Shown here: piece after piece, positions 2,960-34,606 of the stretch
How positions within the stretch are numbered: the stretch's first letter is position 1
Layout: each line of letters opens with the position of its first letter
DNA from: a bacterium
GTDB lineage: Bacteria; Patescibacteriota; Patescibacteriia; 2-12-FULL-60-25
NCBI GenBank assembly: GCA_021796435.1
Contig: JAJYXM010000016.1
Coordinates: 998,625 to 1,062,624 of the forward strand
Reading direction: 5' to 3'
Length of the DNA stretch: 64,000 nucleotides
Notes under the pieces: generated by a model
What the model was told of the DNA's origin: nothing
The model's input: the letters and a program-made list of their open reading frames with translations, nothing else
Database searches by the model: none
Made by a program: the position numbers and the translations under genes

Positions 2960-4198
2960 ATGTCGGATAGGAACAAAAAAATCATCTTCGCGGTCTTCTT
3001 CATCCTTTTTTCCATAGGCATGGGTTACGGGATGTACTATCTCTTCTTCAGGATGAACGCGGCGCCAAGCGTACCAGCGACACCAGAGCAATTGGCCGGA
3101 GGGTTGCCTAGCGCGGGTACAGGCGGTCCTACTGTCGGCGCTACGACGACCCAGCCTGGAGGTTTGCCGTCAGCAGGCGAGACAGGAGCCGCAGGTGAAG
3201 CGATAGGCGCGCTACCGTCAGAAACAACGAAAATCCACTTGCTGCACGATGGCATCACCCAATCCGTCGCACCGGAAAAGGACGGAACTGGCGCGAGATT
3301 CTATAACCCGGAAGACGGCAGGTTCTACAAAGTCAACGCCGACGGGAGCATCACGCTCTTGGGAGACAAACAGTATTTCAACGTCGATAAGGTGGATTGG
3401 GGAAACACGAAAGATGAGGTCATAGTCGAATTCCCCGATGGCTCGAACTACTATTACAATTTCGAGGAACAGAAGCAGGTCGTTCTGCCGCAACATTGGG
3501 AAGAATTCCAGTTCGCACCGAACGACAGCAAGATCGAATCCAAGAGCATCGGCGTGGATGCGGATAACCGCTATCTGATCACGGCCAACCCGGATGGGAC
3601 GGAAGCGAAAGCCATCGAACCTTTGGGTGAAGACGCAAACAACGCCCATCTTTCATGGTCACCGAACGGACAGATTGTCGCCTATTCCGATCGTGGACAG
3701 ATCTCTTCGGATAACCAGCAACAGGTAATTTTCGTCGGACAGAACCACGAGAACTTCAAATCAATCAACACCGTGGGGCGGGGCTTCCTGCCCAATTGGT
3801 CCCCCACCGGAAAGCAGATACTCTATAGCGTCTACGGGACCGACAGCAGGAACAAACCCACGCTCTGGGTGGTATCGGGCGAACCTAATACGATCGGCGC
3901 CAACCGACGGACGATCGAGCTAAACACCTGGGCAGACAAATGCGCCTGGACGGACGACACGACCGTCTATTGCGCGGTGCCCCAAAATCTGCCTGACAAT
4001 GCCGCACTGTCGCGGACGGAATTCCAGACGCTGCCGGACGACGTCTATCGCATCAACGTCAATACCGGCGCCGCGACAAAACTCCTGCTGCCAGACCTGA
4101 CGCATGCCATACGCAATCCGATCGTGACCAAAGACGGCAGCCAGATGATCTTCTCCGATGCAGCGACGGGCAAGCTGTATAGCTACGACTTAAAATGA
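2960..4198 (+). CDS. Membrane-anchored beta-propeller-like (TolB/PD40-type) protein
   Basis: A short basic N-terminus precedes one membrane helix (about residues 9-30), then a Gly/Pro/Thr-rich linker (about 34-80) and a soluble domain of about 330 residues. This domain shows repeated beta-propeller signatures: Asp-rich strand ends and 'WSPNG', 'WSPTG' and 'WTDD' motifs spaced like PD40/TolB blades. Family knowledge suggests a protein-protein interaction scaffold outside the membrane rather than an enzyme. The gene has its own -10 box and overlaps the following DsbA-like gene by four bases (ATGA), so translation is probably coupled. The domain call rests on motif spacing. Confidence 0.65.
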   Translation: MSDRNKKIIFAVFFILFSIGMGYGMYYLFFRMNAAPSVPATPEQLAGGLPSAGTGGPTVGATTTQPGGLPSAGETGAAGEAIGALPSETTKIHLLHDGITQSVAPEKDGTGARFYNPEDGRFYKVNADGSITLLGDKQYFNVDKVDWGNTKDEVIVEFPDGSNYYYNFEEQKQVVLPQHWEEFQFAPNDSKIESKSIGVDADNRYLITANPDGTEAKAIEPLGEDANNAHLSWSPNGQIVAYSDRGQISSDNQQQVIFVGQNHENFKSINTVGRGFLPNWSPTGKQILYSVYGTDSRNKPTLWVVSGEPNTIGANRRTIELNTWADKCAWTDDTTVYCAVPQNLPDNAALSRTEFQTLPDDVYRINVNTGAATKLLLPDLTHAIRNPIVTKDGSQMIFSDAATGKLYSYDLK

Positions 4199-4893
4199 AC
4201 CACATGAATAAGCAAAGGATCTTCATCGTAGTCTGTCTGGTCCTGGCGTTTTCCGCCATGACAGGTTGGTTGATCTATAGCGCATACAAATCCAGCACGA
4301 CGAAATTCATGGCCGGCGCGCCGCCCCTGGACATCATGAACCTGGCGATACCGCAGACAGTCAACCTAAGCAGCATGCGGCCTCCTGCCATACAACCGAC
4401 GGATGAGACGCGTTACGGCGGACCGGAAGCCGCAGCCTCCGTGATACTTTTCGGCAATTATTCCTGCGCAGAATGCAGGAAAATAGAACAAAGCATCAAG
4501 GAAGTCGTCCCCAAATACAGCGGCAAAGTCCGCTATGTCTGGCGGGACATGCCAAATGAAAACGCCAAATATGATGCGGATGCTGCATTGTTCGCCTTAT
4601 GCGCCGGTCTGCAGGGTAAGTTCTGGGACGTCCACGACGCACTCATGGCCGAACAATGGGTCTCAAGTCTGGATTTCGATTATCTGACGAAGCAACTGCA
4701 ACTTGATGCGACGCAGATAGCGGCCTGCATGGCCGACCAGACGCTGATCGAATCGATCAAGAACGACGCCGCTTACGCCCGTTCGGATGGCGTGACTTCC
4801 ACGCCCATCTTTTTCGTCGGGACCGAAGCCTTCGCGAGCTACCTTACGCCGAACGAGCTGGACAGCAAGATCAAGGAATTCCTGGGGTCGTAA
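4195..4893 (+). CDS. DsbA-like thioredoxin-fold protein, membrane-anchored
   Basis: The 232-residue protein has an N-terminal membrane anchor (about 7-30), a linker, and a thioredoxin-fold domain with a Cys-Ala-Glu-Cys active site (C91/C94). The expected DsbA-type helical insertion and a cis-proline motif (Ser-Thr-Pro-Ile near residue 204) follow. Proteins of this family oxidise or isomerise disulfides outside the membrane. Its neighbours at 768, 4917, 6760, 8793 and 14187 are exported and rich in Cys, so they are the obvious substrates by inference. The start overlaps the upstream stop (ATGA); an in-frame ATG at 4204 is a possible alternative. Confidence 0.85.
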   Translation: MNHMNKQRIFIVVCLVLAFSAMTGWLIYSAYKSSTTKFMAGAPPLDIMNLAIPQTVNLSSMRPPAIQPTDETRYGGPEAAASVILFGNYSCAECRKIEQSIKEVVPKYSGKVRYVWRDMPNENAKYDADAALFALCAGLQGKFWDVHDALMAEQWVSSLDFDYLTKQLQLDATQIAACMADQTLIESIKNDAAYARSDGVTSTPIFFVGTEAFASYLTPNELDSKIKEFLGS

Positions 4894-4916
4894 GGCGTGA
4901 ATCGGATATCTAAAGC

Positions 4917-6758
4917 ATGAAGCATAAAACCGGCGGCAGACAACGCTATAAAGCCCACGGATCGGCAAGCAGGATCGCCGCCGTAATTTTGTTTTCGATA
5001 TCCGCACTCGCTTCTTCGGCGCCTGCTGCGTTGGCCGTCTGCTGCAGTTGCTATAAGGATAATCCGACGAATACCATCTGCCTGAATTTCAGCACAGCTT
5101 CGTGCGCAAACGGCCTGTCGAGCGTCAGCAACAGCAACCTTACCGGCATAAAATGTTCCGGTGAGATAGTAACGGCACAATGCAAGATGGTGGCCGACGG
5201 CGGAGTGTGCAACGAACTGGCCGAGGCCGCCCTGTACGAACCACCCAGCGGCCAGACGCAGGCCACGGTACAGAGCACCACCAATAACACGACCGACAAG
5301 TTCACTCCCCAACTGCCATCGAACAGCATCGACATACCAGGTCTCGAATATTCAAGCGATATCACGGTACAGGACGGTAAGGTCACGATACCTTTCTTAG
5401 CCCAATATGTAGCAGCCATATATAGATACGCTATAGCCGCTTCTCTGATAGCGGCAGCCATCATGATCACCTACGGCGGTTTCCTATATATCGTCGGGGC
5501 GTCGGTCAAGTCAGTCACCCGAGGTAAACAGATCATCACAGACGCCTTGGTCGGACTAGTCCTGGTCATAAGCGCCACGACTATACTCAAGTTCATGAAT
5601 CCGGACGCCAGCATCACCAAGCCTCTGGTGGTGAACTACGCGAAATACGATCCGGAGTTCCTGAATTCCCTGCTAGGCGATCCTGCGACTTATCCGCCGA
5701 CGGATCCCGTCGTCCTGCAACAAGAAGAGTCCAAGGCGGCAGGAGCCTTAGCGGGAGCAGCTGCCGCAGCAGGACTCGGAGGCTCAACGCCCACTCCAGA
5801 AAGCGCAGGTGCCGCTGCAGCCACGGGAATAAGCGGCCAGTGGAAGTTGTCTTCTGACGGGACCAAACTGTGGCCGTTGGATTGCAGCGGGATACAGTTG
5901 GTGGGAAAGAACAACAAGCCGGGTTCGTATACGACGATATTGGCTGCATTAAGCAAACCCGCGGCGACCAAAGAACAACTGGCGGAAAAAGTCAAAGCAG
6001 TCGTCGAGGCATCAAAGACGGGTGCGTTCTATGCACGCGGCATAGAGTTCAATAAACCTAGGGCCTTCTATACCGATCCGCCTGAAGAGAAGACCAGGAA
6101 GAACGGCACGAAGTATAAGTTGATCCCAGGAGGCTACCCGGCATATGGCTTCGACTGGTGGCTGATGAACGAGATATACAACGTCAGGAAATGGCGGACC
6201 GACGAGATGCTTAGCCCAGAGGCCTGCGGCACAGACTTGCCCTCTAGTGCAGGCAGCGGAGGAAGCAAATTCGCGAATTTTTTCGCCAAACCCGCCAACA
6301 AAGCCCGTCTCGTGCCATGCATGAACGCGATAATCGACGTGCTGAACAATACCCTCCTCCGTGTCTCACAATGTTTCAACATCAAAACTGACCAGTGTTC
6401 TTTCGCGCAGAACATCAAGCCTACTGGAGTCGCCATAAAGACGGTCGAGCATATACCGAAGGACGACCTGATAGCAGGATTCAAGGCAGGCGCCTATCCT
6501 CCCGGGACAAACGTCTCGAGCGAAGGAGGAGGACACCAATGGGTTTATATCGGCGGACTAGGCCTGGGATATGAAGTGCTGGAATGGGGCGGCAGTGGCG
6601 GTGATGCATACAACGGACCGAACGTCGTCATCAGTCCTGGTTTCTTCGGAGAAGATACGACCACGTTCAAACCCGGCATCAGGACTTCGAGGTCCGTAGT
6701 CTCTTACATCGGGACACAGGGCTACAAGATGTTCACGGTCTACATCCCTGAATGGTGA
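4917..6758 (+). CDS. Pilin-segment protein with NlpC/P60-like C-terminal domain
   Basis: The 613-residue protein has a signal peptide with a long basic n-region (cleavage near 40), a Cys-rich N-terminal module (about 41-110), and the TrbC/VirB2-like helix pair (about 168-194 and 206-226). An Ala/Gly/Pro linker leads to a C-terminal domain of about 300 residues. That domain holds a candidate Cys (C468) and a 'GHQWVYIGG' motif (H540) resembling the Cys and His regions of NlpC/P60 or CHAP peptidoglycan peptidases. The equivalent pair in the neighbour at 6760 is clearer. The catalytic assignment is tentative, and a Asp-Cys-Ser-Gly at 322-325 is an alternative Cys. The gene lies in an operon with the similar gene at 6760, one base apart. 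Confidence 0.7.
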   Translation: MKHKTGGRQRYKAHGSASRIAAVILFSISALASSAPAALAVCCSCYKDNPTNTICLNFSTASCANGLSSVSNSNLTGIKCSGEIVTAQCKMVADGGVCNELAEAALYEPPSGQTQATVQSTTNNTTDKFTPQLPSNSIDIPGLEYSSDITVQDGKVTIPFLAQYVAAIYRYAIAASLIAAAIMITYGGFLYIVGASVKSVTRGKQIITDALVGLVLVISATTILKFMNPDASITKPLVVNYAKYDPEFLNSLLGDPATYPPTDPVVLQQEESKAAGALAGAAAAAGLGGSTPTPESAGAAAATGISGQWKLSSDGTKLWPLDCSGIQLVGKNNKPGSYTTILAALSKPAATKEQLAEKVKAVVEASKTGAFYARGIEFNKPRAFYTDPPEEKTRKNGTKYKLIPGGYPAYGFDWWLMNEIYNVRKWRTDEMLSPEACGTDLPSSAGSGGSKFANFFAKPANKARLVPCMNAIIDVLNNTLLRVSQCFNIKTDQCSFAQNIKPTGVAIKTVEHIPKDDLIAGFKAGAYPPGTNVSSEGGGHQWVYIGGLGLGYEVLEWGGSGGDAYNGPNVVISPGFFGEDTTTFKPGIRTSRSVVSYIGTQGYKMFTVYIPEW

Positions 6759-8814: not shown

Positions 8815-10637
8815 AGGGAAATGTCATCAAGACTTTGGCGATGTCCTGGCTCATAGGACTCTGTTCGATTTGGGTCGTGTTCACTCTCCCACATGTCGCC
8901 TATGCCGCCGACGACTCGGCGAGCGTCAATGCCACCTTCGAACCACTGACGCCCGAACCGCAGATATCCATACCCGGGTTGTCTTTCTCCACGGAACTCA
9001 AGCAGACTACGGTGAACGGCGAACAAAAGCTCCAGATACCCTACATGGCTGAATACTTCGCCGCATTATACAAATACATCATCGGCGCTTCATTGATCGC
9101 GGCGGCCATCATGATGACTTATGGCGGCTTCCTCTATATCTTAGGCGGCAGCATCCAAAGCATCTCGAACGGCAAAGACAAGATAAAACAGGCATTAGTC
9201 GGATTAGCCTTGGTCTTTTCTGCGGTCACCATACTGAATACTTTCAATCCCAACGCGGCGACCGTAAAACCTTTGGACGTGACCCTGATCAAGCCTGATC
9301 CGATCAACAGCTATCTTGGCGCGAATCAGGATGCCCCGCAGACCATGACCGAGCTAGGCATCCAACCAAGAGCCAAGGCGCCGACGAATGTGGCGGTGGG
9401 CGCTCCGCAAACGGGCGATCCAGCCGTAGCGCAAGCCGCCAACGAAAAACCCGATTTGAGCAGCACCGGTCCGACGACACCCGGAGGGCCACAAGGCACA
9501 GTAGTAGGCCAGGCTGTCGCCACGACGGATGAATATGTCCCTCCTCCATCGACTGCGAAATATCCGACTGACCTGAAGATCCCAAAAACCTGTCCAGGCA
9601 GGAATCCGGGGTTCGATGCGCCATCTACATCAAACCCTTACCAAGCGAAAGCCAAAGGCGAACTGGACAAGTTCGTGCTTTTGGGCGGAAGGCCGATCTA
9701 TCCGAAGACGCGGTTAGCCATCCCGTTGGATGAAGCGGCGATCGAGAAATATCTGGAAGAGCAGTCGATAACAGGCGTACCGGCTGGTGCGATAATCGCA
9801 CAGATGCTGACGGAATCTTGGAACACGTGCGTGATAAACAGGCTCTTTTCAGATCCCAAGTCATGTTCGACTTCCGATTTCGTGAAATACCTGAACTTCG
9901 GCGGCATCGGATGCACTGCCGCCCAAGTCCCGGCGAATTCCTGCCCGCACGTCGCTTTCTATCCGGGATTCAACGTCAAAGACAAGAGCGATGTGATCGG
10001 TAAAGGGGGCTGCAGCGATGGTCCGAACAATTTCAACAATGCCGCAGGATCGAATTGCGCCAGCATCTGCGCCAGCTCCAACCAAAACAGCTTCAACAAC
10101 TGCGGCCCGAACTGTTACGCCCAGAAGTCGCATGCCTCGACCGTCGTCAACGGCAAGGAGGTCTGGTTCCCCTCCGTGCAATGCAGCCGCAAATACAACT
10201 CCGCACAGGAATTCCTGAACTCGCATCTCGGATTCGTGAAGTTCTGTCTGCCCTATAACGACAGCGTCTATAAATTCGCCTATTGCATCGGGGCCAGCAC
10301 TTATGCAGGCGTGTCCGGCGACAAAGGCGCGCTCTTGGCCGAGATCATCGAAAGGAACTGCCTGTGCGGAAGCAACGATTCCACGGGATGCAAACGCGAC
10401 CTTGAGTTCGAGAAGCAGCTTTCGCTTAATCTGATAAAAAAACGGAACTTGACTTTATATGGGGCGAAGTGCCTAGAGTACTATGATGCGGCGCACAAAA
10501 AGTGTAAGAAGTATGCATCGTATGACGAGGGTCCGGATTATGACGCCATCATAAAAGCCTTGAGCGAATCCACCAAGGGTGCCCTTAATCCCCGCGAATT
10601 CCCTCAGAACGACGTCATACCGCCTGGCACACAGTAA
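8793..10637 (+). CDS. Pilin-segment protein with glucosaminidase/lysozyme-like domain
   Basis: The frame is open from 8754, but the ATG at 8793 gives a normal signal peptide with a basic n-region (614 residues) and overlaps the upstream gene by 22 bases; an ATG at 8841 is another option. The pilin-type helices lie at about 90-120 and 130-152. The C-terminal half contains 'GAIIAQMLTESWN' with a likely catalytic Glu (residue 341), and a later part ('YKFAYCIGASTYAG') resembles the end of glucosaminidase (FlgJ-type) domains, which cut the glycan strands of peptidoglycan. Extra Cys and Asn-rich stretches are inserted. It is followed two bases later by radA. Confidence 0.7.
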   Translation: MQKSTAIKGNVIKTLAMSWLIGLCSIWVVFTLPHVAYAADDSASVNATFEPLTPEPQISIPGLSFSTELKQTTVNGEQKLQIPYMAEYFAALYKYIIGASLIAAAIMMTYGGFLYILGGSIQSISNGKDKIKQALVGLALVFSAVTILNTFNPNAATVKPLDVTLIKPDPINSYLGANQDAPQTMTELGIQPRAKAPTNVAVGAPQTGDPAVAQAANEKPDLSSTGPTTPGGPQGTVVGQAVATTDEYVPPPSTAKYPTDLKIPKTCPGRNPGFDAPSTSNPYQAKAKGELDKFVLLGGRPIYPKTRLAIPLDEAAIEKYLEEQSITGVPAGAIIAQMLTESWNTCVINRLFSDPKSCSTSDFVKYLNFGGIGCTAAQVPANSCPHVAFYPGFNVKDKSDVIGKGGCSDGPNNFNNAAGSNCASICASSNQNSFNNCGPNCYAQKSHASTVVNGKEVWFPSVQCSRKYNSAQEFLNSHLGFVKFCLPYNDSVYKFAYCIGASTYAGVSGDKGALLAEIIERNCLCGSNDSTGCKRDLEFEKQLSLNLIKKRNLTLYGAKCLEYYDAAHKKCKKYASYDEGPDYDAIIKALSESTKGALNPREFPQNDVIPPGTQ

Positions 10638-10639
10638 GC

Positions 10640-11992
10640 ATGCCCACACCGAAAAACATCTTCATCTGCACCAAATGCGACGCCCAGACCCTGAAATGGT
10701 CCGGGCGCTGTTCGGAATGCGGGGCTTGGGGATCCCTCAAGGAAGGTGCCGAGACTGCCGACGTACCGAGTCAGAGGAAAGCGGGAAAGTCAGGAGAGAT
10801 CAAGACATTCAAAGGCCATACGGCGGAGTCGGCGCAGAGCGAGCTGACCGGAGTCGCAGCGCTGGACGAGGTCCTCGGCGGACTGGTACACGGTTCCGTG
10901 ACGCTGCTCGCCGGCGAACCAGGGATAGGCAAATCCACGCTTTTGGCCCAAGCCGCCATCGCCCTTGCGGCAAGCGGCAAAAAAATCGTCTACGTCACAG
11001 GCGAAGAGTCACCCACGCAGATACATCGCCGCCTGGTCAGATTGGCGCCTGAAATACCCTCTTCCCTTTTCTTCCTGGACCTGACGGATGTGCCGACCAT
11101 CGCCGCGACGATCGAGAAGGAGCGGCCTGACCTGACCATCGTCGATTCAGTGCAGACTTTGCGTACCCCAGAGATGAACGGCGAACCAGGAAGCGTGACG
11201 CAGGTCAAAGCCGGAGCAGCGATCCTGACCGAGGCCGCGAAAAAATTCGGGGCGCCGCTCATGTTGGTAGGCCAAGTGACCAAAGACGGCGACGTCGCCG
11301 GGCCGCGTGTGCTGGAGCACCTGGTGGATAGCGTACTCTTCCTAGAAGGCGACCATGAACATCGCTATCGCATCTTGCGGGCCCTGAAACACCGCTTCGG
11401 TCCGACTGACCAAAGCGCGCTCTTGAGCATGACGGAAAAAGGGTTAGAGACCGTGGTCGATCCGTCGCAGGAACTGCTGCAACACAGGCTATCCGGGATA
11501 CCCGGCTCTGCCGTGACTTGTCTGATCCAAGGACAGAGGCCGATGCTGCTGGAGATACAAGCCCTAACCAACCCTGCCGGCTACGGCACGCCCGTGCGTC
11601 GAGCGACCGGAGTGGATACGAGCCGCTTAGGCATGCTCCTGGCAGTGCTGGCACGGCGTGCAGGAGTCAATGCGCTGGAAAAGGATGTCTACGCGAACGC
11701 TGCCGGCGGAGTCGATGCGCGGGATCCGAGCGCAGATTTGGCCCTAGTCGCAGCCATCGCCAGCGCGACAAAAAACTCGCCCTTGAATCCTCGGCTCGGA
11801 CTGTTCGGCGAGATAGGTTTGGGCGGTGAACTCAGGCCAGTCGGATTACCCGAACTTCGGCTCAAAGAACTGAAGCGCATGGGCTTCGACAGCGCCGTGC
11901 TGCCCAAAGGACAGACGAAAAAATCAGTGGACGGAATAAACATCATCGAAGCCGCTACCCTGGAAGAAGCCTTGAGGTCTTGCGGATTGTAG
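10640..11992 (+). CDS. radA: DNA repair protein RadA
   Basis: The 450-residue protein matches RadA throughout. It has an N-terminal zinc finger (C10, C13, C24, C27), a RecA-type ATPase core with Walker A Gly-Glu-Pro-Gly-Ile-Gly-Lys-Ser-Thr (about 92-100), and a C-terminal Lon-like domain. RadA is a branch-migration helicase that acts with RecA in recombination and transformation. The characteristic Lys-Asn-Arg-Phe-Gly motif is present as Lys-His-Arg-Phe-Gly. It starts two bases after the pilin/glucosaminidase gene, so it probably shares that operon; recG lies head-on downstream. Co-location with pilin-like genes would fit DNA uptake, but this is only suggestive. Confidence 0.97.
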   Translation: MPTPKNIFICTKCDAQTLKWSGRCSECGAWGSLKEGAETADVPSQRKAGKSGEIKTFKGHTAESAQSELTGVAALDEVLGGLVHGSVTLLAGEPGIGKSTLLAQAAIALAASGKKIVYVTGEESPTQIHRRLVRLAPEIPSSLFFLDLTDVPTIAATIEKERPDLTIVDSVQTLRTPEMNGEPGSVTQVKAGAAILTEAAKKFGAPLMLVGQVTKDGDVAGPRVLEHLVDSVLFLEGDHEHRYRILRALKHRFGPTDQSALLSMTEKGLETVVDPSQELLQHRLSGIPGSAVTCLIQGQRPMLLEIQALTNPAGYGTPVRRATGVDTSRLGMLLAVLARRAGVNALEKDVYANAAGGVDARDPSADLALVAAIASATKNSPLNPRLGLFGEIGLGGELRPVGLPELRLKELKRMGFDSAVLPKGQTKKSVDGINIIEAATLEEALRSCGL

Positions 11993-24778: not shown

Positions 24779-24903
24779 CTCCTTGAGGACGTTGAAAAAA
24801 GGAACTGCCGATGATGGAACGTATCAAAATAAGCCCTGAATGTCAAGACTTGCTTATCTTATGGGATGCAATTATTGATAGTGTGTTAAGCCTTAAAATA
24901 GGT

Positions 24904-24909
24904 TATAAT
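24904..24909 (+). promoter_or_regulatory. -10 box TATAAT for the beta-helix gene
   Basis: A perfect TATAAT lies nine bases before the ATG at 24919. A TTGATA at 24875-24880 is too far away (23 bases) for a normal -35. The position indicates a leaderless transcript and supports the start at 24919. Confidence 0.5.
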
Positions 24910-24918
24910 AACAGACAC

Positions 24919-27900
24919 ATGCCCACACAAGGCGACACGATATCCGGAGGGAAGAGATCCAGTATGGCACTGCGACCATGTGCATTTTTGTTTGTTCCGA
25001 TACTGGTTGTCCTGGGACTACTTTTCGGTCATCAGGTTGCGGCGGCGACCAAGACCGTATGCGCTTCCGGCTGTGACTACACCAATCTGCACGATCTGTT
25101 CTTGAGCGGGACGCTCATAGCCGGTGATACGGTAAACGTCGGCGCCACGTATTCGACCACGGGTGAAAGTTTCGATTTGGCCGTTCCGGTGACCGATTTG
25201 ACCTTGGATTGCCAATCCAGCGGAGCGGTAATAGGCGTCACATCCTCTACATTCGTACTCCTGTATGCCAATAACGGATCCGTGATACGTAACTGCACAT
25301 TCAATAACCTGAAGATACTCGCCGACACGGAGAACGATGTCCACATCACGAACAATACCTTCAACGGCATCTCGTATATCGATGTCGGCGGAGATAGGCC
25401 GCAGGTGAACGATAACCGACTTTTGGACCTGCTCTATTTCCACGACATGAGCGATGGCCAAGTCAGCGGCAATACCTTCGAGACACCATACCCGGACATC
25501 CAATCAATCGTGATAGACAACAGCCATAACGTAGATATAACGTCCAACGAAATCACCAACACCACAGTCTCCTCCTCCAGCTTCATCGACATGATCAAGC
25601 TGACGACGAGTACCGGGATCATCGTCGCCACCAACACTTTCCAATTGCCCTACGCGGATTTCATCGACGCCGGCGACATGATCGGCGTCCTGAACTCAAG
25701 CGCCGAAATAAGCTACAACAAGATGACCTTCGGCAGCCGCACCGGAGCTTCGAATTATTTGAACGGCATCTCGGTTTCGGCGCATGCAGGCGAGGCACAG
25801 GCGATCACGCACCATAACACGATGAAGATCCTGCCGACCTGTACGCGCTGTATCGGCATTTCCTATGCAAGCTGGACAACCTACAAGATATACGCCACCT
25901 CGACCTACAACCTGATCTATTATCTCTCTCCGTCCAGCACGGCAAGCATCGGAGGGCTATCAACTTACGACGAAGGCGCTGACGCCAACTTCATCTACAC
26001 GAGCGATTATAATGCCGCAATCAATACGAATCAGCCCGATAAAGGCCGGGCAGTGCTCGGTACGCATTCATACACGCAGGCTGACCCGTGCTTCAAGACC
26101 AATGATGCGGACACGACCAATGATTTCGACCTCGTCCCCTTCAGCTACTATCTGGACGTGAACGGGACGCAGGATATCGGCGAATACTCCGGCAGCAGGA
26201 TCCAGGACATAACCGTAAATTCCAGCGGACCGGTGGACTTCACCAATATCCACGCAACAGGCACCTCCTGCGTCGCGCAAAGCCTGCGCAACGGCGATCG
26301 GGTGACTATCGCAGCAGGGAATTACGGACCGATGTACCTGAACGGCAGTCCCCTGCTGACCGGCAACGTAAGCATCAGCGGCGCCGGAGCGACGACTAAC
26401 ATCATCGCCACTTCCACAGGCAGCGGCATCCACTTTTCCGGCGTAGCTTCATCGACGGTCAGCGACCTGAAAATATCCGATGCATCCACTACGCTCAACG
26501 TCTCATACAGCATGACGCGAGCACAGTTCAAATACGGCGCCACGACCTACGACCAAGGTGCGGGCGTGGGCTTAGCGAATGCGACCTTCATCATCACGAG
26601 CGCACCTTCAGGCGGCAGCTGCACTTCGGTCCAAGTCGATAGCGACGGAGATGCGATCCCGACCTCCATCGGTACCAACGGGTCAGCGTGGAACCTGGCT
26701 CTGGTCGATTACTCAGGACATAAACTCACCTTTTACGGACCGGATAACTTCACGCACACGGCTGCGGATATCGAAGCGTGTGCCGGCCCTGGCCTCATCA
26801 CGGTCGAGAAATTCGTACCTGACATCTTCACTTCAAGCGGAGTCGTCTTGAGCTATAACCAAAGTGCGGCGACCGCAGCCTCGGTCTCCGTAAAAGCCGG
26901 CGACACGGATCCGCCTTCCGTGACACGTTATGCCTACTATACGCCTGACGCCGGAGTCGTCTTCAATAACGCCAGCACGAATACGGTATCCAACATAACG
27001 AGCGCGAATAACGGCTTCGGCGTGATCTTCCAAGGCAGCTCATACGACAATGTCTTCAGCGGTTCGACGATCAGCGGAAGTTCGGTCGGCGACGTATATT
27101 CCACCTCGACGCGGGATAACAGCTTGGAAGATGCGACTTTCGATCGCGCCACGAGCTTGGTGGTGGGCAGCGGTAGCGTAAATGTGAAGTATTCGTTCAG
27201 GGCATGGCTAAAGAGCACGACTGATGCGCCGATCGGAAGCGCTGGCGTGACTTTCACGTCCTTCAACACGACCAACAGCCAGACACTGACGACAGCCGCG
27301 ACCGGCTACACCCCATACAGCTCTCCGACCCTGGCATATAGGTTGACGAGTTCGGATATCAGCGAAACATCAGGAGGATACAACCCCTACTCCGCCGCGG
27401 CACAGGGTATGTCGGGGTACAATAACGTAAGCCAGGACTTCACGCTGAATACGCCGCAGCAGACGGTCACCTTGTCGGCATCAGCCACAAGGACTGGCGG
27501 CAAATCCGGTGGCGACCTGCCTCCGGTCACGACGTCTTACCAGACATATGCGTCTGACGGACAAGGCGGCGGACATTATCTGCTGCAGCCAGGCAGCCTG
27601 ACCGATGGCGGCACGAGCCTAGGTCTGATCAAGCTTCCGGATGACGGCAACCCGAAGACGCAAGAGGATACGGCGGTGTATTTCATGGGTACGGACCTCA
27701 AACGGCACGCTTTCCCGAACGAGAAGACATATTTCTCTTGGTACTGCGATTTTTCCCAAGTGCGGATCGTGGATGCGATGACCATGGCATCGATTCCGCT
27801 CGGGGCAAACATAAGTTACAGGCCAGGATACAAGCTGGTTAAATTCGTGAGCGTCCCGACCGTCTATTACGTCGGCGCTTACGGCATGCTCTTACCCATC

Positions 27901-28368
27901 GCCGACGAAGCGGCAGCCATCAGGCTTTATGGCGCTGCGTGGAACAAGAATATCGATGACATATCCGATGCGTTCTACGGGAACTACGTCACATCCGACA
28001 TGATCTACGACGGCTCCGAGATGTCTTTCGGCGCCAGTACCACCAACCCAGGCCTGCTCGACAAGACGAACAACAACAGCTGCGCCGCCGGCAAGGTCTG
28101 GCCATTCAGATATTCGACATCAGCCTGGAATTTCACTTCCGACCTGAATAGCCAAAGCCATGATGTAGTCTCCATCCGCGCTCTGCAGGAAGTTCTAGCC
28201 TATATGGGCACAGGGATATATCCGGAGGCAATGAACACCGGCGTTTACGGGCAGTTCACCGCACTGGCGGTCGGGCGCTATCAGACGTCAGTCGGTCTAC
28301 CGGCGACAGGCAATGTAGGACCAGCCACACGCGAAAAGCTGAACAGCTATCTGGACACTTTCCGCTAG
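24919..28368 (+). CDS. Large secreted beta-helix surface protein with peptidoglycan-binding end
   Basis: The frame is open from 24811, but ATG 24919 follows a -10 box by nine bases and gives a signal peptide with a basic n-region (1149 residues); ATG 24964 is a further option. The first part (about 50-700) is a Ser/Thr/Asn-rich right-handed parallel beta-helix with PbH1-like turns such as 'NDVHITNNTFNGI'. It is followed by a fibronectin-like stretch, a region resembling that found in many Patescibacteria surface proteins ('YFMGTDLKRHAF', 'GYKLVKF', 'VYYVGAYG'), and a PG_binding_1-like end ('VVSIRALQEVLAYMG', 'TGNVGPATREKLNSYL'). It is probably wall-anchored. Beta-helices often bind or cut polysaccharides, but no catalytic site is seen. 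Confidence 0.8.
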   Translation: MPTQGDTISGGKRSSMALRPCAFLFVPILVVLGLLFGHQVAAATKTVCASGCDYTNLHDLFLSGTLIAGDTVNVGATYSTTGESFDLAVPVTDLTLDCQSSGAVIGVTSSTFVLLYANNGSVIRNCTFNNLKILADTENDVHITNNTFNGISYIDVGGDRPQVNDNRLLDLLYFHDMSDGQVSGNTFETPYPDIQSIVIDNSHNVDITSNEITNTTVSSSSFIDMIKLTTSTGIIVATNTFQLPYADFIDAGDMIGVLNSSAEISYNKMTFGSRTGASNYLNGISVSAHAGEAQAITHHNTMKILPTCTRCIGISYASWTTYKIYATSTYNLIYYLSPSSTASIGGLSTYDEGADANFIYTSDYNAAINTNQPDKGRAVLGTHSYTQADPCFKTNDADTTNDFDLVPFSYYLDVNGTQDIGEYSGSRIQDITVNSSGPVDFTNIHATGTSCVAQSLRNGDRVTIAAGNYGPMYLNGSPLLTGNVSISGAGATTNIIATSTGSGIHFSGVASSTVSDLKISDASTTLNVSYSMTRAQFKYGATTYDQGAGVGLANATFIITSAPSGGSCTSVQVDSDGDAIPTSIGTNGSAWNLALVDYSGHKLTFYGPDNFTHTAADIEACAGPGLITVEKFVPDIFTSSGVVLSYNQSAATAASVSVKAGDTDPPSVTRYAYYTPDAGVVFNNASTNTVSNITSANNGFGVIFQGSSYDNVFSGSTISGSSVGDVYSTSTRDNSLEDATFDRATSLVVGSGSVNVKYSFRAWLKSTTDAPIGSAGVTFTSFNTTNSQTLTTAATGYTPYSSPTLAYRLTSSDISETSGGYNPYSAAAQGMSGYNNVSQDFTLNTPQQTVTLSASATRTGGKSGGDLPPVTTSYQTYASDGQGGGHYLLQPGSLTDGGTSLGLIKLPDDGNPKTQEDTAVYFMGTDLKRHAFPNEKTYFSWYCDFSQVRIVDAMTMASIPLGANISYRPGYKLVKFVSVPTVYYVGAYGMLLPIADEAAAIRLYGAAWNKNIDDISDAFYGNYVTSDMIYDGSEMSFGASTTNPGLLDKTNNNSCAAGKVWPFRYSTSAWNFTSDLNSQSHDVVSIRALQEVLAYMGTGIYPEAMNTGVYGQFTALAVGRYQTSVGLPATGNVGPATREKLNSYLDTFR

Positions 28369-28862: not shown

Positions 28863-29552
28863 TCAGATCCAGGCCGCAAAAATCAGACGAGGAGGCTTTT
28901 CGCCTTTCCTCTGCCTTTTGGAAAAAGACTTATACCATTCGATCCTCTTGAACCCCGCCTGCCGCAAAGACAGCTCCACCTGTTCGCGGGTATAAAGTCG
29001 TTCGCGATGTATCTCCACGGAGGGGCGATTTTTCTCCGGGATCCGCAATCTCACCGTCCAGGCGCTGGGAGTCTGCGTAGATATGAAATCAACTCCTTTT
29101 TGGGTGAAGTTTGGGACGAAAACCTTATCCGGCGTGTTGAAGTCACCAAAAAATACACCTTGTTCGTCAAGGTGGTCTCGTATATTGCGGATGGCCACCT
29201 CGAGCTGCCTGACAGTGGGCAAATAATTCAGGACATCGAAAGTGCAGGTGATCGCATCGAATTTTTTGCGGAAACTGAAACTTAAGACCGAGTCTTTCCT
29301 GAAATACTGTTTAGGATTTTTGGCTTTCGCGTATTTCAACATGGCGACCGAGGTATCGATACCCGTACAGTCGGGAATATCTTTCTTTAGGTAGCGGATC
29401 AAGGTTCCGGTTCCACACCCTACATCCAATAAGCTAGAGACTGGATGGCCGTGTGCCGAAAGGATACGCAAAATGAACCGCGCATATTCGCGATATTTTT
29501 TCGCCAGGTATATCTCATCATAGACCTTGGAAAACGCACCGTATTGCTTCAT
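28863..29552 (-). CDS. Class I SAM-dependent methyltransferase
   Basis: The 229-residue protein has motif I 'LLDVGCGTGTLIRYL', an acidic loop 'GIDTS' after strand 2, 'DAITCTFDVLNYL' (motif IV region) and a C-terminal strand region, typical of class I methyltransferases acting on small molecules or proteins. The substrate cannot be read from the sequence. It lies downstream of the radical SAM gene on the same strand but behind a terminator, so a joint role is possible but not shown. Confidence 0.85.
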   Translation of the reverse strand: MKQYGAFSKVYDEIYLAKKYREYARFILRILSAHGHPVSSLLDVGCGTGTLIRYLKKDIPDCTGIDTSVAMLKYAKAKNPKQYFRKDSVLSFSFRKKFDAITCTFDVLNYLPTVRQLEVAIRNIRDHLDEQGVFFGDFNTPDKVFVPNFTQKGVDFISTQTPSAWTVRLRIPEKNRPSVEIHRERLYTREQVELSLRQAGFKRIEWYKSFSKRQRKGEKPPRLIFAAWI

Positions 29553-29589: not shown

Positions 29590-29622
29590 GCCTCCTGGAC
29601 CCGATGCGGGTCGACAGGAGGC
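29590..29622 (-). terminator. Terminator after the radical SAM gene
   Basis: An eight-base-pair stem GCCTCCTG/CAGGAGGC with an inner GACCC/GGGTC stem lies eight bases after the stop at 29631. On the minus strand it is followed by TATTTCTTTT. Confidence 0.75.
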
Positions 29623-29630
29623 AGGGGCGC

Positions 29631-31028
29631 CTACTTCGCGAGAAGTCCGGCGATCGAGGGATCCATCGCTACACCGTGACGCGTCAGCAACGGGACGATC
29701 CTCTGTACGAAGAACGTGACCGCCTTGCAGGCGTACTCGTCCTTCGAATGTTCGAAGTGGCCACCGAGGAAGGCGGCGTTCGCGCGACATCCGGTGGCGC
29801 ACAGCGAGCGGATCGCGCAATCACGGCATTCGTCGATGTCCGCGATGCGCAGGTTCTTGACCCTGTGCATCTCGCCCGAATACCAGACGTCGGCCAACGA
29901 AGCCCGGTGGATGTTGCCGATGACCGAATCCACGCAGTACGCGCACGATACGACGTCGCCATTGGGCTTGATGCAGCAGCTTTCGCGCTTCCCCTCGTAA
30001 TCGCAGACGAACTCGCTGGCCTCCAGGGGTCGCAGGTTCTCCAGCAGCTCTTCCCGGTAAAGGTACTCGATCTGCAGATGGAAGGGTTTGCCGCCGGCCA
30101 GATGGCGCTCCAGTATCCCGTATGAAGTCTGCGCCATCTCCTCCCACGAAAGCTCGTGCTCCTCCGCATCGGAGCGGAAGAAGCCGGCCCTCTTGGGGAA
30201 CCCGATGCGCCAGCTCTTGATGGGCGTCCTGGATAGGAGGTCGTACATCAAGTCGAGCGTCGGCTCGTTCTCCTTCGTCATGACGGTGTTCACGACGACA
30301 GGGATCCCCGCCTCCATGAGCAGCTCAAGGTTGCGCAGGATGCCCTTGAGTGCAGACTCGGCTTGCGCGCCAGTAAAGCCGCGGAAGGCCATGCCATCGG
30401 GCCTGATGGCGTCCAAGCTCAAGAAAACCGTCGGCCGGCTGCGCAAAGCCTTCAACTCGGTGACGATCCGTTCGTCAAGCGCAAGGCCGTTGGTGAAAAA
30501 AGCGTTAACGCGCAGCCTCAGTGATTCGTAGAAACGCGCGATCTCCAGGGTGAGCGGGTTCAGGAACGGCTCACCACCGCTGATCGCGACGTTGTCGACC
30601 TGGAGCGCATGCATCTCGTGGCCAAGCCGTTCGAGCCGCTCCCAGGACAAGCCGGGTACGTTCCTGTAGAGCTCGCCTTGATAGCAATGGGCGCAACGCA
30701 TGTTGCACTGTCCGAAGGCCTCCAGGTGCACCGCGTTCAGTCGGATGTCCGGGACGGGCGTCTTGATGAAAGACCTTCCCTTGCCGTCGTCGCTTTCGGT
30801 GATTGCGCCGATGTCCTGGAGAGTCGCCAGGAACTCCCCCACGACCTCCAGCGACTCATCGTCGTATTGGGCCAACAACCCAGCCCGATCCAGCTCTCCA
30901 TCGAGCAACAGCACGAACTCGTACTGATCCTCGTCGAGGAGGCGTTTCGCTCCGGTGGTGACATCCTGGAGGATGCGCTCGGAGAATGAAGCGTGGACAT
31001 TGAAACGGTCCGCAAGACGGATTTTCAT
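29631..31028 (-). CDS. Radical SAM/SPASM peptide maturase with PqqD-like N-terminus
   Basis: The 465-residue protein has an N-terminal region of about 85 residues resembling a PqqD/RiPP recognition element. A radical SAM core follows with C108-x3-C112-x2-C115 (binding the 4Fe-4S cluster that cleaves SAM) and 'GGEPF' at 151-155. A C-terminal SPASM domain has C342, C351/352, C362, C365, C401, C404, C410, C414 and C434 for auxiliary clusters. This architecture is known from enzymes that modify ribosomal peptides (PqqE, AlbA and streptide types). A 46-residue peptide gene lies 84 bases upstream on the same strand. The ribosome binding site GGGGAAG precedes the ATG. The chemistry performed cannot be deduced. 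GC content looks higher than in its neighbours, suggesting transfer. Confidence 0.9.
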   Translation of the reverse strand: MKIRLADRFNVHASFSERILQDVTTGAKRLLDEDQYEFVLLLDGELDRAGLLAQYDDESLEVVGEFLATLQDIGAITESDDGKGRSFIKTPVPDIRLNAVHLEAFGQCNMRCAHCYQGELYRNVPGLSWERLERLGHEMHALQVDNVAISGGEPFLNPLTLEIARFYESLRLRVNAFFTNGLALDERIVTELKALRSRPTVFLSLDAIRPDGMAFRGFTGAQAESALKGILRNLELLMEAGIPVVVNTVMTKENEPTLDLMYDLLSRTPIKSWRIGFPKRAGFFRSDAEEHELSWEEMAQTSYGILERHLAGGKPFHLQIEYLYREELLENLRPLEASEFVCDYEGKRESCCIKPNGDVVSCAYCVDSVIGNIHRASLADVWYSGEMHRVKNLRIADIDECRDCAIRSLCATGCRANAAFLGGHFEHSKDEYACKAVTFFVQRIVPLLTRHGVAMDPSIAGLLAK

Positions 31029-31040
31029 GATACTTCCCCT

Positions 31041-31075
31041 GGATAGACGAAGCCCTGGCCTTTTCGGGTCAGGGC
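31041..31075 (-). promoter_or_regulatory. Hairpin between peptide and maturase genes
   Basis: On the minus strand GCCCTGACC CGAAAA GGCCAGGGC forms a GC-rich stem with one bulge, 40 bases after the peptide stop and before the maturase ribosome binding site. There is no T tract. It could stabilise the upstream peptide mRNA or partly attenuate transcription, giving more peptide than enzyme. Confidence 0.4.
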
Positions 31076-31112
31076 GTGGCGGAGTTTGTGAAGAGCGTAG
31101 CGCTCCCCGTGA

Positions 31113-31253
31113 TCACGTACCAGGCTGGCTGGCGTTCAGCGCCTGGGTCAGGCGGAACTGCTCTCCCTTGCGGACGAGCTTCGCGTTGCGCATGGTGCGC
31201 TTGCGGGTGGATGCGGCGGGCGGATCTTGACGGACGATGCGATGCGATGCCAT
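31113..31253 (-). CDS. 46-residue peptide, candidate RiPP precursor
   Basis: This small gene has a strong ribosome binding site (GGAGG, five bases before ATG 31253) and lies directly upstream of the PqqD-like/radical SAM/SPASM gene. The peptide is rich in Arg and Lys (about 12 of 46), begins Met-Ala-Ser-His-Arg, has one Glu (31) and one aromatic residue (Phe33), no Cys or Trp, and ends Asn-Ala-Ser-Gln-Pro-Gly-Thr. Position, size and a dedicated promoter fit a substrate of the maturase: a leader bound by the PqqD-like domain, then a modified core. Lack of Cys argues against a sactipeptide; a carbon-carbon crosslink or similar change is possible. That it is the substrate is inferred from context. 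Confidence 0.65.
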   Translation of the reverse strand: MASHRIVRQDPPAASTRKRTMRNAKLVRKGEQFRLTQALNASQPGT

Positions 31254-31279
31254 GGGAACCTCCAAAATGAACCAAATTT

Positions 31280-31308
31280 AAATTACACCCGTCTATAAAA
31301 AATTGCAA
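31280..31308 (-). promoter_or_regulatory. Candidate promoter of the peptide/maturase operon
   Basis: On the minus strand TTGCAA (31308-31303) and TAATTT (31285-31280) are 17 bases apart, with a predicted start about 20 bases before the peptide ATG. The -35 box lies in one arm of the palindrome at 31303-31324. Confidence 0.45.
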
Positions 31309-31324
31309 ATGGTGCCATTTACAA
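31303..31324. promoter_or_regulatory. 22-base near-perfect palindrome, probable operator
   Basis: TTGCAAATGG TG CCATTTACAA has one mismatch between its ten-base arms and overlaps the -35 box of the peptide operon. This is where a dimeric repressor would be expected to bind. No regulator gene is adjacent. Confidence 0.5.
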
Positions 31325-31439
31325 TTATTGAATCCTTGCAAAATTTCAGACAACCGATTTTTCAAATAAATCGATTATTTGCCCAAAAAAGCCATGAAAA
31401 AACTGAATATTCGTTAGAATAAATCAGAAAGTGAGGCTT

Positions 31440-32988: not shown

Positions 32989-33732
32989 TTATGAAATTCC
33001 AAACTCCGTTCGAACCGAATCTTTAAGTTGTTTGATAATGGATTGGTAATTGCGGGGGAGAAAGGGTTTCAGATCCGCTTCAAGCTCATGATCGGATATC
33101 ATGTCCAAGGAATCGGAAATCTTTTGCAACGATTCGGGGTCATGTGGCAAGAATTTTCGCAAATGCGGGTCACGCGCAAAAAAGTAAGCATCGAACACGT
33201 CACGTGGCTTGTGGCGGCTTTTTAGCGCTTCGATTTTCTCCTTTACGATCAGCTCATCCTTGAGCGTCACAAGGGAATAAGCGGGGAGAAAAAGCGGGTT
33301 GGTTATTACATGTGTCTGCGGCACTAGCCAGGCCGGATCGTTTTTAATCTGCAAATTAGAAATCATACCGACCTTAAAGCCCAAAATGTCGAGATTGATA
33401 TTGGCGAGATAACCGCCGGAAGTGGCATCCGCGTCCTGAACTTCCAGATTCTTGGTAATCCCTTCTTCCTCCAAATCGTAAAGCGCGCCAAGTAGGACGT
33501 CCTCGATCTCCTGTTTGGTCATGCGAGGTATGGAAAAATCCAGATCCTCAGAATATCGCGAGCCATTGAAGACGATTCGGATAGCCGTGCCGCCTTTGAA
33601 TAAAAACCTGTCCGCACCTTCCTTCTTGTACAAGGCACGCAAAAACAGATGTTGCAGGTACTCGCGTGCGACGTTTATTTCAGAAGTCTGCTCACGCGTC
33701 GCCAGCTCAGATATGTTGGACTGATTGATCAT
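32989..33732 (-). CDS. AbiEii-family nucleotidyltransferase toxin
   Basis: The 247-residue protein has the nucleotidyltransferase signature 'FLFKGGTAIRIVF' then 'RYSEDLDFS', diagnostic of the AbiEii/AbiGii toxin family (PF08843), and a helical C-terminal part with 'KIEALKSRHKPRDVFDAYF'. AbiEii toxins transfer nucleotides and block growth during phage infection. The ATG overlaps the antitoxin stop by four bases (ATGA), the usual coupling of AbiE pairs. It is flanked by tRNA-Ser-derived repeats, which suggests acquisition as an island. Confidence 0.9.
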   Translation of the reverse strand: MINQSNISELATREQTSEINVAREYLQHLFLRALYKKEGADRFLFKGGTAIRIVFNGSRYSEDLDFSIPRMTKQEIEDVLLGALYDLEEEGITKNLEVQDADATSGGYLANINLDILGFKVGMISNLQIKNDPAWLVPQTHVITNPLFLPAYSLVTLKDELIVKEKIEALKSRHKPRDVFDAYFFARDPHLRKFLPHDPESLQKISDSLDMISDHELEADLKPFLPRNYQSIIKQLKDSVRTEFGIS

Positions 33733-34415
33733 ACGATATTCAATGTCTTCAAAAGATTGTCATAAGCTACCCGTTTCCTCCCCTTCAACGCATTCCTGAA
33801 ATGGATGAGATATGAGGCTAATTTATCCTTATCAAGTTTCGAGAAATCTGACCGCTGGTTGACTTTGCGCAAACCACGAACGACGAAATACAGATAATCC
33901 AACACAGCCTTTTCCTTATCGGCCATCAAAATCGGTACACCGCCGATAGATATCTTATTGTAACCAAAAAACAGATTCCGGTTCATCCTGTGGTAAGCAA
34001 AGTCGCGGTTGAGTCGATTGAACCGTTTAGGGAATTTCGGCGTCACCGATGTGACCGCATACACCGTTTCCGGGATTATCCTGTGATAGGAAAGCGCAGA
34101 TTCCAAAGAAATATATGACGGAGAAACCAGATAATTCGCCAAAGCGAATGCGCTGGGGAGCCTGACTGACAGACCGAATAATCCGGGCTTGATCCGAACT
34201 AAAACACCCTCTGCCAAGGCCTCGCTCAAAGCCCGTTCCGTCTGCTTAACGGATAAGCCCAAAAGCCGACGTAAATCATTTTTACCAAAAACAGGTATGG
34301 ATTCATACCTTAGCAATGTCGCTTGAAGCTTAGCCGGAGAAAATAGCTTTCTTAAGCGAATTTTTGTCGTTTTGCCTATATTCTTAACCTTTTTACTGTT
34401 AATTCTTTTTGCCAT
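33729..34415 (-). CDS. AbiEi-like antitoxin/transcriptional regulator
   Basis: Starting at ATG 34415 (ATG 34451 is possible), the protein has 228 residues. It has an N-terminal winged helix ('FGKNDLRRLLGLSVKQTERAL') and a C-terminal domain ('YISLESALSYHRIIPE', 'ADKEKAVLDYLYF') typical of AbiEi antitoxins. These bind the operon promoter and counter the cognate toxin. The gene is upstream of and overlaps the toxin gene. Basic N-terminus (about six Lys) fits DNA binding. Confidence 0.88.
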   Translation of the reverse strand: MAKRINSKKVKNIGKTTKIRLRKLFSPAKLQATLLRYESIPVFGKNDLRRLLGLSVKQTERALSEALAEGVLVRIKPGLFGLSVRLPSAFALANYLVSPSYISLESALSYHRIIPETVYAVTSVTPKFPKRFNRLNRDFAYHRMNRNLFFGYNKISIGGVPILMADKEKAVLDYLYFVVRGLRKVNQRSDFSKLDKDKLASYLIHFRNALKGRKRVAYDNLLKTLNIV

Positions 34416-34606
34416 ACCGTGGGTGGAAAAACTATCAACAGTAAGATACATCCAGTGGAAAAGTACGTCAAACGTTTAATTTATATAACACCCCGGATTC
34501 CGTCCAGCACTTTGTCCAATCTTCCCCTTAAAACGATTTTATTTTCGCTGATAGCCCTTCGCATAGACAAGGATAAATCCGATACATCGAGTATCGAGTT
34601 ATTTAT

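Follow-up and report, generated by a model that had tools for sequence, protein, structure and literature searches.

A putative three-gene cassette for a modified ribosomal peptide with an invariant RLTQALN motif in Patescibacteria

Results

Organisation of the locus

The locus described here lies within a stretch of 64,000 nucleotides (G000:C1:998625-1062624, hereafter the window) of a patescibacterial assembly of 1.6 Mb, where genes for a short peptide, a radical S-adenosylmethionine (rSAM) enzyme and a methyltransferase follow one another in this order, all on the minus strand. The peptide gene (31116..31253, stop codon at 31113-31115) has 46 codons, is preceded by a GGAGG just 5' of its ATG and encodes MASHRIVRQDPPAASTRKRTMRNAKLVRKGEQFRLTQALNASQPGT, one of a family of five peptides. 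The second gene, an open reading frame (ORF) at 29631..31028 of the minus strand, encodes a maturase of 465 aa for which Pfam, alignment and structural comparison indicate an N-terminal RRE (recognition element of ribosomally synthesised and post-translationally modified peptides, RiPPs), a radical SAM domain and a SPASM domain. The third (28863..29552, minus strand) starts 78 nt downstream of the maturase gene and encodes a class I SAM-dependent methyltransferase of 229 aa (PF13649, E=5e-15). An earlier sequence-only reading of this DNA had pointed to the 46-residue gene with its GGAGG and to the enzyme, both of which stand, and had seen a unit of two genes; judged from gene content and synteny, the cassette is one of three, the methyltransferase included.

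The control elements drawn in that reading fared unevenly. The palindrome 5' of the peptide gene, a possible operator, is present (AATTGYAAATGG-2-CCATTTRCAATT, 31301..31326, assigned to neither strand, 11/12 bp paired), whereas the promoter placed there was not called by a consensus scan. This palindrome is single-copy in the 1.6-Mb genome with up to 3 mismatches allowed, none was seen at the other cassette loci, and the idea of a regulon operator was therefore rejected. The hairpin between the peptide and maturase genes exists (31052..31075, minus strand), although this copy is a weak one (spacer z=-1.1). Spacer hairpins occur at all five loci of the family defined below (family 1), being more stable than shuffles in four of them (z -2.1 to -5.0). 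Such hairpins are often seen where a peptide is needed in excess over its enzyme, and here they probably set the peptide:enzyme expression ratio. As for the terminator, a GC-rich hairpin followed by a T-rich stretch does lie 3' of the maturase gene (29590..29622, minus strand, z=-3.8) and could act as a possible, perhaps partial, terminator before the methyltransferase gene, but a simple terminator scan did not call it. The G+C content is 66% in the peptide gene and 61% in the maturase gene, as against 51% in the window and 48% in the methyltransferase gene; the excess of the first two over the window average suggests that they were acquired from elsewhere.

Distribution of the cassette

No close maturase homologue was found among 96 relatives of the window genome, and a phylum sample of 380 genomes yielded two full-length ones (L013, 46% identity; L014, 43%). 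A scan of GTDB contigs with the single sequence retrieved no homologue, whereas an alignment-based scan recovered these two (L013 as JAMCZU010000032, L014 as Andersenbacteria MHHQ01000027) and added L024 (Nealsonbacteria, 48%) and L027 (43%). Later samples of 380, 381 and 384 genomes contributed just more remote enzymes and no new member of family 1, viral contigs gave no maturase homologue, and plasmids carried remote rSAM enzymes alone, with at most 28% identity among the matches listed. Aligned over their full length, the other four maturases are 43-47% identical to that of the window, N-terminal domain included, and the five cassettes, which belong to distinct patescibacterial lineages, share gene order and strand. 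Conserved pairing of peptide and maturase genes in other Patescibacteria, to which the sequence-only reading had looked as a check, was thus borne out by four further cassettes. With so few homologues in scattered genomes the cassette is rare and scattered; the same kit with the same seven-residue motif in four distantly related members of the phylum looks like a real family. By these comparisons it is a sporadically distributed, new RiPP-type family.

The methyltransferase gene occupies the same place at all five family-1 loci, separated from the maturase gene by 38-83 nt, and its presence at every one of them argues that it is part of the unit. In searches of 26 genomes, the other four cassette methyltransferases were among the best matches of the window protein (E=1e-43, 6e-35, 3e-32 and 2e-21), whereas within the window genome itself the next-best methyltransferase reached E=2e-3 only.

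The precursor peptides and their invariant block

Family-1 peptides have 32-46 aa, are rich in Arg and Lys, and are encoded directly upstream of the maturase at each of the five loci. Besides Met1, the only positions invariant in the alignment of the five are Leu26, surrounded by the small motif [NS][AS]xLx[KR], and Arg34-Asn40. The latter form, close to the C-terminus, the block R-L-T-Q-A-L-N (31134..31154, minus strand), identical in all five members, which is the putative core or modification site. Its codons vary synonymously, for instance between CGC CTG ACC CAG GCG CTG AAC and CGT CTA ACC CAA GCT TTA AAC; since the codons drift and the block does not change, selection acts on the protein, and this coding pattern demonstrates purifying selection on RLTQALN. 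In each of the five cassette genomes a degenerate coding pattern for the block is present a single time, in every case just 5' of the maturase gene; 95 other genomes gave two matches, both at unrelated places, which puts the background at about 0.02 per genome. These two, in G090 and G042, were discarded as a short frame on a contig with no rSAM match and the interior of a 763-aa frame, respectively. The conservation of the block together with its occurrence once per genome excludes chance.

RLTQALN contains neither Cys nor an aromatic residue; any Cys is found in only one of the five peptides, and position 33 varies among them (F, L, L, V, Y). The view, taken from the window peptide alone, that known sactipeptide or streptide chemistry does not fit therefore holds for the family, whose block is devoid of Cys, Trp or a conserved aromatic residue. 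Glu31 and Phe33, which had been noted as the only Glu and aromatic residues with a hint that they react, are not conserved and so are not the reactive residues of the family. The window peptide has no Pfam or NCBIfam match.

Domains and predicted fold of the maturase

The motifs read by eye in the enzyme (C-x3-C-x2-C, GGEPF and a SPASM region with many Cys) are present, and Pfam recognises both domains. The radical SAM domain (residues 106-264; 30237..30713, minus strand; PF04055, E=9.4e-19) holds C108-x3-C112-x2-C115 and GGEPF; the SPASM domain (residues 342-434; 29727..30005, minus strand; PF13186, E=3e-9, and TIGR04085) holds ten invariant cysteines (C342, C351, C352, C362, C365, C401, C404, C410, C414 and C434). 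All 13 maturase cysteines are invariant across the family. C108/112/115 match CxxxCxxC, and the expected SPASM arrangement, C-x(9-15)-G-x4-C ... C-x2-C-x5-C-x3-C ... C, is found as C342, G357-x4-C362, C401-x2-C404-x5-C410-x3-C414 and C434.

Pfam did not detect an RRE or PqqD domain in the N-terminal region (residues 1-85; 30774..31028, minus strand), which the sequence-only reading had called PqqD-like; here the predicted fold confirmed that call. An AlphaFold model of 93 residues built from a five-sequence input (pLDDT 80) is a PqqD-like winged helix, and its top Foldseek matches are RRE-bearing proteins: the lasso B1 proteins TbiB1 and 6jx3, SuiB, CteB, TruD, TigE, PbtF and ThcOx. According to this model the N-terminus has the RRE fold, and binding of a leader peptide is its predicted role. 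The nearest structures to the full-length model are TigE, SuiB and CteB; SkfB, too, ranks among its first ten matches. No NCBIfam equivalog covers the maturase, the known ones all scoring far under their cut-offs.

Taken together, a conserved peptide gene beside each of the five close homologues and a leader-binding RRE predicted on the enzyme are two features expected of a RiPP precursor and its modifying enzyme, and they support the earlier proposal that the small peptide is the maturase substrate.

Sister families with other peptides

Remoter maturases carry different peptides directly upstream, of two further types. Family 2 (L055, L058:2544-4073 and L059:2660-4165) comprises RRE-rSAM-SPASM cassettes with VDMD/VDSFGPDD-type peptides (MLKNFVLKKRSNVASRTLKDAVDMDAE, MLKVFRLVPRKCMRAHTLKASVDSFGPDD and MEKSLETQMLGFKACVAKPSKRTNASVDMDYD), of which the two searched gave no NCBIfam match. 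In family 3 (L051:1934-3358, L052:2205-3626, L054:2678-4111 and L023:7468-8835) the peptide ends in GNxxxxALTKESQGxMYYRGQ, with a looser variant at L023 7468-8835 (GNRRRIVAHREALGAVKYKGQ), and is accompanied by an rSAM/SPASM enzyme and often by a methyltransferase. Other peptides of families 1, 2 and 3 that were searched likewise lacked an NCBIfam match. Methyltransferases adjoin several of the sister-family maturases. In a maximum-likelihood tree, families 1, 2 and 3 each form one enzyme clade (support 95/99, 99/96 and 100/100), so that peptide type matches enzyme clade, as substrate-enzyme pairing predicts.

Neighbouring genes

Several genes around the cassettes deserve mention in their own right. 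Near two family-1 cassettes there is an HExxH (zincin-like) protein, 48% identical between L023 5993-6697 (Andersenbacteria) and L024 5817-6506 (Nealsonbacteria), which belongs to no Pfam family, is absent from the window and is a candidate leader peptidase. On the Andersenbacteria contig (L023 1-17429), three rSAM genes are crowded together with two genes for RiPP-like peptides as well as C39-like peptidases and ATP-grasps resembling D-Ala-D-Ala ligase, and L024 has additional rSAM/SPASM genes on either side. At L027, whose genome is assigned to the same phylum, the cassette lies between two proteins (3881-5527 and 9721-11289) that carry C-terminal sorting domains of the NPFNPTT type. In other phyla such domains are typical of type IX secretion, and here they would reflect either horizontal gene transfer or a mis-binned contig. 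Another genome of the same family (L049, G032:C11:80000-90000) encodes a protein closely related to the cassette methyltransferase (E=6e-24), followed by two other rSAM genes, and no RLTQALN peptide was found in that genome.

In the window, just upstream of the cassette region, an AbiEii nucleotidyltransferase gene and a weak AbiEi-like partner (32989-34451, minus strand) probably form a type IV toxin-antitoxin pair. On the other side, an ORF of 1185 aa (24811-28368, plus strand) has repeats that, by eye, recall surface proteins of the right-handed beta-helix kind, and its C-terminal end looks peptidoglycan-binding-like.

Discussion

A probable RiPP-type cassette and its possible chemistry

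Gene order, domains and conservation make it highly probable that the locus is a compact RiPP-type cassette composed of a precursor peptide, an RRE-radical SAM-SPASM maturase and a methyltransferase. Modification of the peptide itself is inferred, and could proceed as follows. The Arg/Lys-rich N-terminal part with the Leu26 motif would dock as a leader on the RRE, as the fold and the conservation suggest. The radical SAM cluster would then generate a 5'-deoxyadenosyl radical abstracting hydrogen from an aliphatic residue in or beside RLTQALN, and the SPASM clusters would take up the electron as a relay, both steps being suggested by the domain set and the 13 invariant cysteines. The target residue is likely to lie inside RLTQALN and the product would most likely be a bond between unactivated side chains. 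Because neither Cys nor a conserved aromatic residue is available, sactionine, ranthionine, Lys-Trp and aryl crosslinks are excluded as the family-wide product. Since T36-Q37 is invariant, the Thr-Gln bond made by TqqB is the nearest precedent, and by analogy a Thr36-Gln37-type ether crosslink is the leading candidate, albeit one that is individually improbable; a different aliphatic crosslink or an epimerisation are the alternatives. The methyltransferase might finally add a methyl group to the peptide, as synteny suggests, and leader removal and export would fall to proteins encoded elsewhere, or neither would occur.

Several points weigh against this interpretation. The case is made from genes, domains, conservation and a predicted fold; confidence in the full-length maturase model is modest (pLDDT 57); the cassette includes no exporter or protease; the residues on which most characterised rSAM maturases act are missing from RLTQALN, and the chemistry proposed for it was chosen by analogy only. 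The terminator-like hairpin at 29590-29622 also stands before the methyltransferase gene, so that co-transcription of the latter is not assured in the window copy.

This hairpin, together with the lower G+C content of the methyltransferase gene in the window (48% versus 61-66%), the divergence of the L027 methyltransferase (27% identity) and the lack of a methyltransferase match at L058 of sister family 2, would suit a methyltransferase that is a mere neighbour with an unrelated role, leaving the peptide-maturase pair as a RiPP system. We consider this improbable, given the constant position of the gene throughout family 1, its occurrence also beside family 2 and 3 enzymes, and the wide margin by which the cassette methyltransferases outscore the next one of the window genome. 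About as improbable is that the rSAM reaction is an epimerisation giving D-amino acids rather than a crosslink, although the block provides no Cys or aromatic acceptor, its invariant Leu, Ala and Asn could be targets, and the invariant Cys beyond the usual seven of SPASM could act as hydrogen donor.

Two further explanations give the peptide another purpose. It could be the feedstock of a fixed small molecule or cofactor, like those of the PQQ and mycofactocin pathways, with RLTQALN modified by the maturase and the methyltransferase and excised by unlinked proteases; a block that stays invariant in hosts so divergent, within a peptide that otherwise drifts, is what a fixed product predicts, and the missing exporter would be no surprise. 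However, the peptidase or oxidase set of pqq and mft clusters is wanting, and the very sporadic presence of the cassette (the window genome alone among 96 relatives, two more in 380 phylum genomes) is not the pattern of a cofactor that serves a fixed client enzyme, which makes this explanation unlikely, if slightly less so than the two preceding ones. Far less credible is a reading of the small ORF as a regulatory leader (attenuator) or an unrelated small protein, with some other protein as the target of the rSAM/SPASM enzyme. A short ORF followed by a hairpin is indeed found at all loci and Arg/Lys-rich peptides may bind nucleic acids, but amino-acid invariance under synonymous drift, the RRE on the enzyme and a peptide type that shifts with the enzyme clade all speak against it, and attenuator peptides typically show runs of a single amino acid, of which RLTQALN has none.

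Significance

Patescibacteria are streamlined bacteria, most of which are considered to depend on a host. Cassettes with an RRE-rSAM-SPASM enzyme are already known as a kind, whereas the RLTQALN peptide family, its pairing and its cassette are apparently undescribed: they have no NCBIfam or Pfam model, and we found no paper on them or on the motifs RLTQALN and MYYRG in a search that covered few subscription journals and is thus weak evidence. Tentatively, and with rather less conviction than for the cassette itself, we propose an undescribed class of patescibacterial RiPPs in which an aliphatic side-chain bond within RLTQALN would be followed by methylation, the cassette being one of several that are each specific for a peptide type (RLTQALN, VDMD-type and GNR...ALTKESQGxMYYRGQ-type) and sporadic in ultra-small bacteria. 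Two or three small conserved genes, one short peptide, an invariant target of seven residues that lacks the classical reactive ones, and a precise prediction of the site of modification make the cassette an unusually clean case for new radical SAM chemistry, and it may be a handle on the interactions of Patescibacteria with hosts or rivals. Peptide natural products have been little reported from this phylum, the relevant report found being a graspetide survey (PMC8939145).

Comparison with known systems

That survey describes, in the candidate phyla radiation, graspetide clusters some of which include genes for a SPASM enzyme or a UbiE-like methyltransferase (PMC8939145); these are RiPP loci of the same bacterial radiation, but they centre on ATP-grasp ligases. 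No such ligase is present in the three-gene cassette at any of the five loci, the nearest one seen being about 10 kb off and at L023 only. The graspetide precursor motifs also differ, with Phhx(1,2)h in the leader and TxxxTx(6-10)Dx(1-4)D in the core (PMC8939145). Mycofactocin (MftC) and PQQ (PqqE) systems share with the RLTQALN cassette a short precursor whose C-terminal block hardly varies and the combination of RRE and rSAM/SPASM; nevertheless, the maturase scores 80 bits against a cut-off of 265 for mycofactocin TIGR03962 and 45 against 381 for PQQ TIGR02109, its RRE is fused to the enzyme whereas that of PQQ is separate (PqqD), and the Val-Tyr or Glu-Tyr pairs of those precursors are absent from the RLTQALN peptides.

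TqqB, which acts on the streptococcal TQQ peptides, is described as an rSAM RiPP enzyme forming a Thr-Gln ether crosslink through a C-O bond (Clark 2019, cited in PMC7670169). Its likeness to our system consists of one dipeptide, the Thr-Gln pair on which it acts and which RLTQALN holds, TQQ being absent here, and the comparison was with the description of TqqB. Assignment to sactipeptides or ranthipeptides was rejected for lack of Cys donors in RLTQALN, and assignment to streptide, Lys-Trp or triceptide-type cyclophanes for lack of a conserved core aromatic residue. The closest relatives in architecture are SuiB, CteB, SkfB and TigE, which have the same domain order RRE-rSAM-SPASM and are the top full-length structural matches, SuiB being also the best PDB sequence match (E=2e-7). 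Identity in the structural alignments is just 13-19%, and the characterised members target Lys/Trp, Cys or, in the case of TigE, something else, whereas RLTQALN is devoid of Cys and aromatic residues; the methyltransferase partner further sets the RLTQALN cassette apart from these four systems.
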